Part shown: piece after piece, positions 13,158 through 17,894 of the stretch | How positions within the stretch are numbered: the stretch's first letter is position 1 | How the letters are laid out: the number at the start of each line of letters is the position of its first letter | The notes under the pieces: generated by a model | Told to the model about the DNA's origin: nothing | Databases searched by the model: none | The model's input: the letters and a program-made list of their open reading frames with translations, nothing else | Source of the DNA: Candidatus Thiodiazotropha sp. (ex Epidulcina cf. delphinae) | GTDB lineage: Bacteria; Pseudomonadota; Gammaproteobacteria; Chromatiales; Chromatiaceae | Length of the DNA: 45,148 bases | Reading direction: 5' to 3' | Assembly: GCA_025656505.1 (NCBI GenBank) | Contig: JAHXHR010000002.1 | Span: 1-45,148, forward strand | Position numbers and translations under genes: made by a program

Positions 13158-13745
13158 TCAGTGTAAATCCTTTAACAGCGAATCTCTGACAGGCGATCCG
13201 AGTACTTCGACCGCGTGGGTATATGAGGGGTGATCGATACCCACAGACAGATTCGCGCCACTCTTCAGGGCGTCGATCATCGCCTGACTCAGTTCGAAGC
13301 GGAGAAAGTGTACGGCTGAAGTCTTTTCATCCGTGGTGCGTTGTAGATCTTCATTGGCAATGGGCCGCACCTTTTCAAACCCTTCGACATCCATCCAGAT
13401 GGCATTTTCGATACCGATCAGTTCGCTCAGGGCCTGCCTGCGCTCCTCCGCGTCGTGGTACTCCATCATGAAAGTGGCCTTCCAATTCATGCCATCGGGG
13501 ATCAAGGGATTATAGACATCCAGCTCATCCTGGATGCCCTGCTGTTCAAAGATACGCTCGACACGCAGCATTTCCTGTATCTGATACTGCATGGTGAGCT
13601 CATCCTCGAAATAGAGTGCTGCGTGTGGACCGATGGCCAGGCGGCGGCTCTTTTTGTGATCTATCACCCTGGCCCTGAACTCGGCACGGATACGCGCATA
13701 CTCTTCGAGGCTGTAGAGGTCGTCCTGTGAAAGGTGGGTCATCAA
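13158..13745 (-). CDS. DUF3501 family protein
   Basis: Context with rubrerythrin and Fe-S oxidoreductase; motifs EDELTMQYQIQEMLRVERIF, PLIPDGMNWKATFMMEY. Confidence 0.8.
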   Translation of the reverse strand: MMTHLSQDDLYSLEEYARIRAEFRARVIDHKKSRRLAIGPHAALYFEDELTMQYQIQEMLRVERIFEQQGIQDELDVYNPLIPDGMNWKATFMMEYHDAEERRQALSELIGIENAIWMDVEGFEKVRPIANEDLQRTTDEKTSAVHFLRFELSQAMIDALKSGANLSVGIDHPSYTHAVEVLGSPVRDSLLKDLH

Positions 13746-13854: not shown

Positions 13855-15198
13855 CTAAATGCCGTAAGCCTTGCGTATCAGGCTGATAGGATGTTCCGGG
13901 CTCCTGCCGTCGCGTAGGCCGTTTTCGATGTGGCGGCCGGCCATTGGGCAGTCGCTTCCATAGTGGTCCGCCTCGGCCTGCTTGACTCGAGTGACCACCG
14001 GTTTGCCGATTTTCATGGCATGTTGGTGGAACTCACGCTTTACCGCATAGGTGCCGTCATGCCCCGAGCAGCGTTCGATGACGGTGACCTGTGTGTCCGG
14101 GAGCAGGGAGAGCAGCTCCTTGGTCTTGGCGCCGACATTCTGTACTCGCTGGTGACAGGCCGCATGATAGGCGACCTTGCCCAGGCCCTGTTTAAAATCC
14201 GTCTTCAGCAGTCCCGCCTTGTGGCGAATCATCAGGTATTCGAAAATATCGAAAATCGCATCGGCAACCTTCTTCACCGTCGGATCGTCGGGGAACAGCA
14301 GCGGCAGTTCCAACTTGAACATCAGCGCACAGGAGGGGACAGGGGCTACGATGTCCCAGCCCTCATCGACCAGTTTGGCAAGCGCGGGGATATTGGCCTC
14401 TTTTGCAGCCTCTACCGCATCCAGGTTGCCCACTTCCAGTTTCGGCATGCCGCAGCACTGCTCCTTTTCGGCAATGGTGACCGGGATGTCGTTGTGCTCG
14501 AAGACGGCAACCAGATCTTCGCCCAGGTGGGGTTCGTTGTAGTTGCCGTAGCAGGTACTGAAGAGCGCGACCTTGCCTCTGCCGGCGCCGGCCGGCACAC
14601 CCTCTGCGGTGCGGTTTTTTCTGTCAGCCAGACGCTTTCGCAAAGGCTTGCCGGTGAATGCGGGGAGTTTCGCCTCAGGATGCACCCCCAGGGAATGATC
14701 GAGAATTTCGCGGAAATTCTTAGCCTTGTTGAAGGTGTTCACCACCCCGGCGACAATGGGGATACCCGCCAATTTACCGAGGTTGTCGGTGCTGGTGAGA
14801 ATTCGGTCGCGCAGTTTTACATCGCCCTTTCGATACTTGACCGCCTTACCTCGCAGCATGAGGTGGGGAAAGTCAATATTCCACTCATGTGGCGGCACAT
14901 AGGGGCATTTGGTCATGAAACAGAGGTCACACAAATAACAGTGGTCGACCACTTGCCGGAAATCCGCTTTGTCGACACCATCGACTTCCATGGTGTCAGA
15001 TTCATCCACCAGGTCGAAGAGTGTCGGAAAGCTGTGACAAAGGCTGACACAACGCCTGCAACCATGGCACAGATCAAAGACCCGCTCCATTTCCGCCATC
15101 AGCTTCTCTTCGTCGTAATAATCGGGACTTTTCCAGTCAATGGGGCGCCGGGTGGGGGCTTCCAGGTTGCCTTCTCTCAGGCCTGTCGGTGCTGCCAT
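13855..15198 (-). CDS. Fe-S oxidoreductase, heterodisulfide reductase/GlpC-like (4Fe-4S plus CCG domains)
   Basis: CHGCRRCVSLCHSFP, CYLCDLCFMTKCPYVPP, EKEQCCGMP, CSGHDG. Confidence 0.92.
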   Translation of the reverse strand: MAAPTGLREGNLEAPTRRPIDWKSPDYYDEEKLMAEMERVFDLCHGCRRCVSLCHSFPTLFDLVDESDTMEVDGVDKADFRQVVDHCYLCDLCFMTKCPYVPPHEWNIDFPHLMLRGKAVKYRKGDVKLRDRILTSTDNLGKLAGIPIVAGVVNTFNKAKNFREILDHSLGVHPEAKLPAFTGKPLRKRLADRKNRTAEGVPAGAGRGKVALFSTCYGNYNEPHLGEDLVAVFEHNDIPVTIAEKEQCCGMPKLEVGNLDAVEAAKEANIPALAKLVDEGWDIVAPVPSCALMFKLELPLLFPDDPTVKKVADAIFDIFEYLMIRHKAGLLKTDFKQGLGKVAYHAACHQRVQNVGAKTKELLSLLPDTQVTVIERCSGHDGTYAVKREFHQHAMKIGKPVVTRVKQAEADHYGSDCPMAGRHIENGLRDGRSPEHPISLIRKAYGI

Positions 15199-15260: not shown

Positions 15261-15677
15261 TCAGTCCATTTCGTCTAGTGCTTTCTGGTAGCGGTTGGCG
15301 TGAGAACGCTCGGCTTTCGCCAGCGTTTCAAACCAGTCGGCGACCTCGTCGAAACCTTCGTCGCGGGCGGCCTTGGCCATACCGGGATACATATCCGTGT
15401 ACTCGTGGGTCTCGCCGGCGACGGCGGTCTTCAGGTTGTCGCCGGTGGCGCCGAAAGACATCCCAGTGGCAGGATCGCCACACTGTTCCAGGTATTCCAA
15501 ATGGCCGTGAGCATGTCCGGTCTCCCCCTCAGCAGTGGAGCGGAATAGGGCGGCGACATCATTGTAGCCCTCAATGTCGGCCTTGGATGCGAAGTAGAGA
15601 TAACGGCGATTGGCTTGTGATTCCCCGGCGAAAGCGTCTTTTAGGTTTTGCTCGGTCTTACTGCCTTTGAGTTCCAT
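15261..15677 (-). CDS. Rubrerythrin-like ferritin-fold protein lacking a rubredoxin domain
   Basis: [30 protein letters not shown]; ExxH-type iron ligand motifs; ends before any CxxC domain. Confidence 0.93.
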
Positions 15678-15747: not shown

Positions 15748-15762
15748 TTAGAATAGTTATAA
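15748..15762. promoter_or_regulatory. Candidate PerR/Irr-type operator upstream of rubrerythrin
   Basis: TTAGAATAGTTATAA, 7-1-7 imperfect palindrome. Confidence 0.45.
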
Positions 15763-15950
15763 AACTCATTGGAAGCGAATGGTCTTTTCAATGAGGTTGC
15801 CTAAGCGTTGCAGGGGCCTGTCAAAGAGGCACAAAGCTTGCCGTTTCGGCAGGACACCGTGCGGGTGTAAATCACCTCCCAAAAACCACCTGATATATCA
15901 GGTTAATAGCCCGGTATCTGGCAAGATGCTAAAAGAATACTTATACTTTG

Positions 15951-16388
15951 ATGATGAAATCGGACTGGAGCAGCTCAAAAGCAGGGTGTCAGAGCATCGA
16001 CGCGGTACTCAATGAGCATGGGGTTAATCTGACGCGGCAGAGGCGCATCATTGCCGGCACCCTCTTCGCGCGCAATCAGCATGTCACCGCCAATCAACTG
16101 TTCGAGGCAGTGAACAGCACAGGCACCAGGGTTTCCAAGGCGACGGTCTACAATACCCTCGGCCTGTTTGTCAGAAAGGGCTTGGTGCGTGAAATCTTCA
16201 TCAATGCAAGCCGCACCTTCTACGATTCAAATACCAGCCGCCACCACCATTTCTACAATGTCAATACCGGCGATCTGATCGATATGAAAGAGCGGCTGGC
16301 GCCGCACTTCATCGACCAGTACCTGCCTGAGGGGACTGCCATGGATGCGGTCGACCTGGTCATCCGGGTGAGAAACAAGACTTCCTGA
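15951..16388 (+). CDS. Fur-family transcriptional regulator (PerR/Irr-like)
   Basis: LTRQRRIIAGTLF, VSKATVYNTLGLFVRKGLV, RHHHFYNVNTGDLIDM; no CxxC structural zinc pairs. Confidence 0.88.
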   Translation: MMKSDWSSSKAGCQSIDAVLNEHGVNLTRQRRIIAGTLFARNQHVTANQLFEAVNSTGTRVSKATVYNTLGLFVRKGLVREIFINASRTFYDSNTSRHHHFYNVNTGDLIDMKERLAPHFIDQYLPEGTAMDAVDLVIRVRNKTS

Positions 16389-16450
16389 CCCTTCCTCGAA
16401 GCAATCTTTATCGCGTTGGTAAAAGTTTGATCTGCGTCATGGTTCTTATT

Positions 16451-16465
16451 TTAGACTAATTCTAA
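16451..16465. promoter_or_regulatory. Candidate PerR/Irr-type operator upstream of the peroxidase
   Basis: TTAGACTAATTCTAA, 7-1-7 near-perfect palindrome. Confidence 0.5.
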
Positions 16466-16597
16466 TATCCCCCCTGCCACAGGTAAGGTTTTATGTATGG
16501 CGGCGGGATGCTTTTGCTTAGCGAATACCGAGCCTGTATGACTGAACCATACGTGGGGATGGATTTTTACAAAGCTTGCAACTATAGGAAAGTGGAT

Positions 16598-17587
16598 ATG
16601 AAATCTTATTTAACCGCCTTTTCATTTGTTTTGTTGGGCGCTTCTTGCGCCGCTGCCGCAGTGGATGAGCCGATTCAGCCGATCAAGCCGGTGCAGAATA
16701 TCAATCTTGGACAGGTCGAACTGGGTAAAAAACTCTATTTCGACCCTCGGCTCTCCAAGTCAGGCTTTATCTCTTGCAACTCCTGTCACAACTTGAGCAT
16801 GGGGGGCACGGATAATCTGAAGACCTCGATCGGTCACAATTGGCAGCAGGGCCCCATCAATGCGCCGACCGTCCTCAACGCCGGCCTGAATCTGGCTCAG
16901 TTTTGGGATGGACGCGCCGCTGATCTAAAGGCCCAGGCCGGTGGACCGATCGCCAATCCGGGTGAGATGGCCTTCTCCCATACCCTGGCGATCGATGTGT
17001 TGACCTCGATCCCTGCCTATGTCATGGCGTTCAAGCAGGTCTTTGGTACGGACAAAATCACCATCGAACAGGTGACCCAGGCTATCGCTGAGTTCGAGAA
17101 GACCCTGGTGACACCGAACGCCCGCTTTGACCAATGGCTGCTGGGCGACAAAAACGCCCTCACCGAAGAGGAGCTGGCAGGCTATAAGCTCTTCAAGGAG
17201 AGTGGTTGTTCAGCCTGTCACAATGGAGAGGCCGTGGGGGGTAACTCTTTCCAGAAAATGGGTGTTGTTGCATCGTACCAGACCACGAATGCCGCCGAAG
17301 GGCTGAGCGGCGTCACCGGTAAGGATGCCGATCGGTTTAAGTTCAAGGTGCCTACCCTGCGCAATGTGGAGATGACCTATCCCTATTTCCACGATGGTGA
17401 GGCCGCCACCCTGACCGAGGCTGTCGATATCATGGGACGGCTGCAATTAGGCAGGAAATTCAACGACAAAGAGAATGATCAGATTGTGGCGTTCCTGAAG
17501 GCCTTGACCGGCGATCAACCCTCCTTCTTAATGCCGATTCTGCCGCCGTCAACTGAAAAGACACCCTTGCCCAAGCCGTTTGAATAA
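16598..17587 (+). CDS. Di-heme cytochrome c peroxidase
   Basis: Two heme motifs CNSCH and CSACH; KKLYFDPRLSKSGFISCNSCHNLSMGG; signal peptide at the proposed start. Confidence 0.95.
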   Translation: MKSYLTAFSFVLLGASCAAAAVDEPIQPIKPVQNINLGQVELGKKLYFDPRLSKSGFISCNSCHNLSMGGTDNLKTSIGHNWQQGPINAPTVLNAGLNLAQFWDGRAADLKAQAGGPIANPGEMAFSHTLAIDVLTSIPAYVMAFKQVFGTDKITIEQVTQAIAEFEKTLVTPNARFDQWLLGDKNALTEEELAGYKLFKESGCSACHNGEAVGGNSFQKMGVVASYQTTNAAEGLSGVTGKDADRFKFKVPTLRNVEMTYPYFHDGEAATLTEAVDIMGRLQLGRKFNDKENDQIVAFLKALTGDQPSFLMPILPPSTEKTPLPKPFE

Positions 17588-17588
17588 T

Positions 17589-17877
17589 CCTAAAAACCGC
17601 AGTTGACCGCTCCATTCTGATACTAAACTACTGATATGCAAATCATTGACTTCGATTTGCCTATTTACCGGTTGGGTGAACCACGCTACGGGGTGAATTG
17701 CACGCTTGCGGGGGCGCATGGCTGCGTTGCAACGCCTTGGAATAGCATGACTATTCCGCGTTGTTGCGCGCCGTGCAGGGATGCACAAGTGCCGCAAGTA
17801 CAGGGATGCGCAGGAGCGACCCTTGCCCTGCACCCCCGCAAGCGCACACTTCACCCCGTCCAACTGCGGTTTTTAGG
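17589..17877 (+). mobile_element. MITE-like element, family A copy 3 (289 bp)
   Basis: Near-identical to copy 2; sits between convergent stop codons of the peroxidase and glk; no clear target duplication. Confidence 0.87.
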
Positions 17878-17894
17878 TTTACAGTTTCAACGGT

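Follow-up and report, generated by a model that had tools for sequence, protein, structure and literature searches.

Introduction

Rhodobacter sphaeroides Irr has two verified direct targets, mbfA (encoding a rubrerythrin-like ferritin) and ccpA, and the irr mutant is peroxide-resistant (PMC3413700). The Cys4 structural zinc site of canonical PerR is absent from Leptospira PerRA and from Irr, and PerR and Irr are separated from Fur by the Asp position and by a residue in the recognition helix (PMC8638967). Expression of Escherichia coli yhjA/ccp is controlled by FNR together with OxyR and follows an AND logic of low oxygen and peroxide (PMC10301912). Irr-type regulators were predicted in Acidithiobacillus in 2008 (PMC2631029). 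Aerobic-type rubrerythrin, RFO and DUF3501 genes form a known three-gene arrangement (PMC5114695).

Here we describe a related locus in a 45,148-nucleotide stretch of the genome of Candidatus Thiodiazotropha sp. (ex Epidulcina cf. delphinae), referred to as the window. The Fur-family regulator encoded there belongs to the Irr clade, as does R. sphaeroides Irr, whose rubrerythrin-like protein and cytochrome c peroxidase are the counterparts of the two candidate targets in the window. Unlike R. sphaeroides Irr, it lies on a gammaproteobacterial branch outside the alphaproteobacterial Irr clade, scores below the NCBIfam Irr cut-offs, and is encoded beside its candidate targets, and the predicted regulon elsewhere includes peroxiredoxins. 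Leptospira PerRA (5nl9; PMC8638967) is its best PDB match in sequence and fold and its sister in the tree, and likewise combines PerR ligands with the lack of a structural zinc site, but identity in the fold alignment is only ~32% and the phylum is different. The five regulatory ligands and the Asp104 equivalent are shared with Bacillus subtilis PerR, which has a Cys4 zinc site and falls in a separate clade. As in E. coli yhjA/ccp (PMC10301912), an anaerobic activator and a peroxide regulator appear to be combined in AND logic on a cytochrome c peroxidase gene, with an Irr-clade repressor predicted here in place of the OxyR activator. Acidithiobacillus also has Irr-like Fur-family proteins outside the Alphaproteobacteria, and the available passages of that study give no Irr operator or regulon (PMC2631029). 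The rubrerythrin cluster consists of the same three genes as the described one, whose regulation is not treated in that paper (the string 'regulat' occurs nowhere in its text; PMC5114695). Systems of this kind are known, but the literature searched contains no description of the gammaproteobacterial variant or of its apparent exchange with OxyR. New here are the gammaproteobacterial operator with its core regulon, the link to OxyR and the pairing with FNR.

Results

Organization of the locus

The rubrerythrin gene (start 15677), the RFO gene and the DUF3501 gene follow one another on the minus strand, and the Fur-family gene and then the di-heme peroxidase gene are transcribed divergently from them (Table 1). 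The regulator may start at ATG 15951 or 15954, and TTG 15948 is likewise in frame. The start of the di-heme cytochrome c peroxidase (CCP) gene was set by conservation and the signal peptide; the open reading frame from 16493 extends beyond the conserved part.

Table 1 Features of the regulator locus in the window
Feature	Position	Strand	Basis
Irr-clade Fur-family regulator gene	15951..16388	+	Pfam FUR 64 bits; best NCBIfam IrrA 112 bits; tree
Candidate operator at CCP promoter, TTAGACTAATTCTAA	16451..16465	.	Kept by every congener and by other genera
Candidate operator at rubrerythrin promoter, TTAGAATAGTTATAA	15748..15762	.	Kept in most congeners
FNR/DNR-type box TTGATCTGCGTCAT, upstream of CCP operator	16427..16440	+	TTGAYnnnnRTCAA, 0-1 mismatch
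Predicted -10 TAATAT of CCP promoter	16463..16468	+	Overlapped by operator 3' end
Di-heme cytochrome c peroxidase/MauG family (CCP)	16598..17587	+	PF03150 205 bits
Aerobic-type rubrerythrin without rubredoxin domain	15261..15677	-	PF02915; cluster in PMC5114695
RFO gene of rubrerythrin cluster	13855..15198	-	PF02754; PMC5114695
DUF3501, partner of aerobic-type rubrerythrin	13158..13745	-	PF12007 251 bits; PMC5114695
-10-like element of regulator gene, TTATACT	15938..15947	+	Kept across congeners, dyad not

The regulator and its relatives

The earlier note had left the choice between PerR and Irr to a phylogeny, and the regulator falls in the Irr clade, not in PerR proper. In the tree, the regulator and 38 homologues from Gammaproteobacteria group with alphaproteobacterial Irr (98/87), and Leptospira PerRA joins next as their sister (100/99), apart from canonical PerR and Fur. 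Alphaproteobacterial Irr itself is an exclusive clade (100/100) that leaves the window protein outside. The NCBIfam profiles IrrA and Irr score 111.9 bits (cut-off 150) and 108.5 bits (cut-off 170), both below their thresholds. The closest relatives of the regulator are found in Ca. T. endolucinida, Ca. T. taylori and other genomes of lucinid symbionts, and the one other Fur-family protein of the genome is a canonical Fur.

The PerR-type ligands H44, D92, H98, H100 and D111, which correspond to H37, D85, H91, H93 and D104 of the PerR reference, are all present and are invariant in the homologue alignment (A3). The Cys4 structural zinc site is absent: the positions equivalent to C96 and C99 are occupied by Asn and Thr, respectively, and there is no C-terminal CxxC, which agrees with the earlier reading of a regulator devoid of CxxC zinc pairs. 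Fur criteria are unmet as well, with Asn instead of Arg in the recognition helix and Asp instead of Glu at the Asp104 position. The HHH motif that had been likened to Irr is present in the window protein, but its middle residue varies among homologues (HHH, HYH, HFH), and what is conserved is HxH. An N-terminal heme regulatory CP motif was found in none of 100 gammaproteobacterial homologues; it occurs in only 7 of 29 alphaproteobacterial Irr proteins and is thus not universal in Irr. An AlphaFold model (mean pLDDT 79) has Leptospira PerRA (5nl9) as its best structural match. Since it scores under the curated Irr cut-offs and has no PerR-type zinc site, we filed the protein as an Irr-clade, PerRA-like regulator, which by its sequence is neither a canonical Irr nor a canonical PerR.

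A second conserved genomic context, seen in many other gammaproteobacteria and accounting for 49 of the 100 irr-like loci (L056 and L051 among them), places the irr-like gene downstream of a DAO-family FAD oxidoreductase gene, with pilin-like genes adjoining on the other strand.

Operator sites in the window and in congeners

Two 15-mers had been put forward as 7-1-7 palindromes of the PerR/Irr type and a third as a weaker match, and direct reading of the window confirms the coordinates of all three. The palindromic description fits the CCP site TTAGACTAATTCTAA (6 of 7 dyad pairs), which is the sole exact match to TTAGAnnnnnTCTAA in the 45-kb window, and the rubrerythrin site TTAGAATAGTTATAA (5 of 7), its sole one-mismatch match. 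It does not fit the third site at 15932-15946, AAAGAATACTTATAC, which has 3 of 7 dyad pairs and 5 mismatches and of which congeners keep TTATACT alone. We therefore rejected this site as an operator; its sequence looks like a -10 element immediately ahead of the regulator start. Only a few bases separate the -10-like TATACT from the start codon (15938-15956), and the layout suggests that the regulator mRNA is leaderless or has a very short leader.

Within the window, matches to TTAGAATnATTCTAA with at most 3 mismatches number 3 against 0.72 expected, and 6 of 100 shuffles reach 3 or more. These statistics alone are weak, and the comparative evidence is decisive. The TTAGAnnnnnTCTAA operator is found upstream of CCP in every irr-CCP locus examined. 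In all congeners the CCP site reads TTAGAATTATTCTAA or TTAGACTAATTCTAA, with TTAGAATTGGTCTAA in L066, and in 3 of the first 6 congeners it is the perfect palindrome TTAGAATTATTCTAA. The rubrerythrin site is kept in G063, G136, L066-L068 and L119 (as TTAGAATAGTTCTAA in G063 and G136) and is degenerate (CTAGAATAGAGTTAA) in three congeners, G007, G096 and G118. This operator is lineage-specific and has decayed in some congeners, which we count against the repressor model described below. The operator probably resembles the alphaproteobacterial ICE.

A stretch of ~28 bp at about 15766-15796, upstream of the rubrerythrin operator, is near-invariant in six congeners and reads TTGAAAAGACC..TCG.TTCCAAT on the minus strand.

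Architecture of the CCP promoter

An FNR/DNR-type box is present in most CCP promoters of genomes with an irr-like gene; in several genera, that of the window included, it lies 16-25 bp upstream of the operator. The FNR box begins 36 bp from the predicted -10 TAATAT, a spacing that fits a class II site centred at -41.5, and in G029 a TATAAT is found at a near-equal offset (37 bp). The window -10 lies at the 3' end of the operator, and operator occupancy would block polymerase.

Co-occurrence of operator and regulator

A weight matrix was trained on Thiodiazotropha sites only and then applied to other genera. There, all 7 CCP promoters (7 of 7) yielded the operator at p<=0.0007 against background windows, and so did the rubrerythrin gene of L098, an unrelated locus (p=0.0004). 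For 19 of 94 other homologues a site was also recovered ahead of the irr-like gene itself (p<=0.01; ~1 expected); the background windows include coding sequence, which makes these p values somewhat generous, a fault that per-promoter shuffles do not share.

From 146 genomes of the same family we took the 30 best CCP orthologues. The CCP-promoter site is present in 19 of 19 genomes with an irr-like gene and in 0 of 11 without one, a correlation that is not phylogenetically independent, which we count against the model, and that includes some incomplete assemblies, so that irr absence is not certain in each of the 11. All sites of the former group score at least 5.1, 18 of the 19 at shuffle p<=0.04, and the best score of the latter group is 3.1. 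CCP and the irr-like gene are not adjacent in 9 of the 19 genomes, which excludes simple hitch-hiking of a neighbouring promoter. The contrast is also seen within one genus, where G097 has both irr and the site and G011 has neither. Mapped onto the CCP tree, irr presence switches about 5 times and the site follows each switch; only one pair lies on well supported branches, and a phylogenetically corrected pair test therefore has no power.

The two main 15-mers are conserved in orthologous promoters, one of the points on which the earlier note had beforehand let its proposal stand or fall, and across genera the presence of the operator also tracks the regulator. Apart from the one false site, the earlier finding is in essence correct. 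Conservation and co-occurrence support the putative PerR/Irr-type regulator with operators common to the rubrerythrin cluster and the di-heme peroxidase.

Candidate regulon and OxyR

We scanned 12 irr-bearing genomes outside the genus for exact TTAGAnYnnnTCTAA. This sequence is rare (13 places), and about 9 of the places are just upstream of oxidant-defence or iron-sulfur genes, namely peroxiredoxin genes, sodB, iscR, the CCP gene and the gene for a second peroxidase of MauG type. Two Aquisalimonas genomes have a one-mismatch site in the interval from irr to a canonical fur. The peroxiredoxin site is present in 14 of 25 genomes with irr and in 0 of 5 without, and a site precedes msrAB in three congeners. 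As peroxiredoxin and MsrAB are not iron enzymes, these sites speak for peroxide as the signal more than for iron economy. A search of the window genome and genus for a peroxiredoxin operator found none, which we count against the model. One-mismatch scans of genomes of the window genus gave no more matches than a backwards-pattern control, and extra targets from a single genome are therefore not trusted.

An OxyR homologue lies within 1.1 kb of rubrerythrin in 31 of 79 close orthologues from the same family, and irr is found at rubrerythrin in all six Thiodiazotropha genomes. CCP adjoins OxyR in at least four irr-less genomes, and a fifth (G085) has OxyR in the CCP locus. In the OxyR neighbours that were inspected, both redox cysteines are intact. 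These observations suggest a natural swap, at the same genes, between two unrelated peroxide regulators, the Irr-clade protein and OxyR. The window genome also encodes an OxyR homologue elsewhere, which we count against the repressor model.

Proposed mechanism and alternatives

We propose, with a probability of roughly 0.6, that the regulator is an Irr-clade PerR-like repressor which acts on the rubrerythrin-RFO-DUF3501 cluster and on CCP through TTAGAnnnnnTCTAA and is relieved by peroxide, CCP being gated by FNR/DNR as well. Without peroxide, a metal-loaded dimer, with Fe or Mn on H44, D92, H98, H100 and D111, would bind the operators, and at the CCP promoter it would sit between the FNR box and the -10 and block transcription. 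Peroxide would inactivate the iron form, either by PerR-type histidine oxidation or by Irr-type degradation, and both targets would be freed. CCP would also need an FNR/DNR-type activator and may therefore be active only at low oxygen plus peroxide. Sequence gives the operator and its conservation, its tie to the regulator, the set of ligands and the way the promoter is laid out; from these we infer that the protein binds the sites directly, represses the targets and responds to peroxide. The model draws on the operator that tracks the regulator, also where the two genes are unlinked, and on the held-out weight matrix. It is further supported by the PerR-type ligands together with the Asp that marks PerR/Irr and the Asn of the recognition helix, by the Leptospira peroxide regulator PerRA as closest solved structure and tree sister, by the candidate oxidant-defence targets elsewhere (peroxiredoxins, sodB, iscR, a second MauG/CCP and msrAB), and by the OxyR homologues beside the same genes in relatives.

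Sensing of iron or heme is the main rival to sensing of peroxide. A classic Irr, active at low iron or heme, would repress the iron-demanding CCP and rubrerythrin until iron or heme suffices, and the position of the regulator in the Irr clade and its HHH motif would fit such a role. Iron economy would explain the window pair too, given that CCP and rubrerythrin each contain iron as enzymes, in line with iscR and sodB among the candidate targets and with the equivalent pair of verified Rhodobacter Irr targets, mbfA and ccpA (PMC3413700). We nevertheless consider this explanation unlikely, since the heme CP motif is missing from all 100 homologues, non-iron peroxiredoxins and msrAB are among the candidate targets, and OxyR takes the place of the regulator beside the same genes.

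It is very improbable that the sites are Fur boxes bound by the canonical Fur of the genome. Their 7-1-7 dyad is laid out as in Fur boxes, and the genome has Fur-box-like TGAGAATnATTCTCA sequences at other places, yet the sites do not begin with TGA as Fur boxes do, and Fur is expected in genomes with and without irr alike, which does not agree with the absence of the CCP site from the 11 irr-less genomes. The idea that the sites are chance AT-rich promoter sequence of no regulatory meaning could appeal to the modest excess within the window; set against the held-out conservation and the perfect co-occurrence with the regulator, it deserves still less credence.

More broadly, the gammaproteobacterial Irr branch may be a true peroxide sensor without the structural zinc site, exchanged with OxyR at CCP and the rubrerythrin cluster, so that the Irr lineage would include, and perhaps began as, a peroxide sensor. 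We hold this broader view tentatively, at somewhat under even odds. Whether Irr arose from a peroxide sensor becomes a directly testable question that takes one protein and two short DNA fragments. Sulfur-oxidising and related Gammaproteobacteria have a large Irr-like group, most of it uncharacterised, for which the analysis also provides an operator and a core target, CCP.

Other operator-like sequences

Several matches were rejected as operators. Those at C49:5386, C54:13040 and window position 17579 probably belong to the ends of a dispersed repeat, with a TAGGAT-type end beside CCGCAGTTG. Such repeat ends (TAGGATAATCCTAAAAACCGCAGTTG), which give false operator matches, lie at 17579-17604 and 17858-17880 of the window, between CCP and a glucokinase-like gene, and copies like TAGGATAATCCTAAAAACCGCAGTTG are found in other contigs (L011 and L012 near 1501). 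Four further matches on contig C37 belong to a 366-bp tandem repeat (G000 contig C37 29435-30547; L007 1475-2916), which has about 4 copies at 98%, runs to the contig end and holds a Fur-box-like TGAGAATCATTCTCA in each copy.

A conserved protein of 88-94 amino acids without a Pfam match is encoded near an HDOD gene (L150 1847-2131, L176 1430-1696, L178 1875-2141). In congeners its gene is preceded by one or two TTAGAn5TCTAA sites; the gene is absent from the window genome. An operator-like ATAGAATGAATCTAA is located ~35 nt upstream of pcm (protein isoaspartate methyltransferase) in L174 and L156 (G063 and G136).
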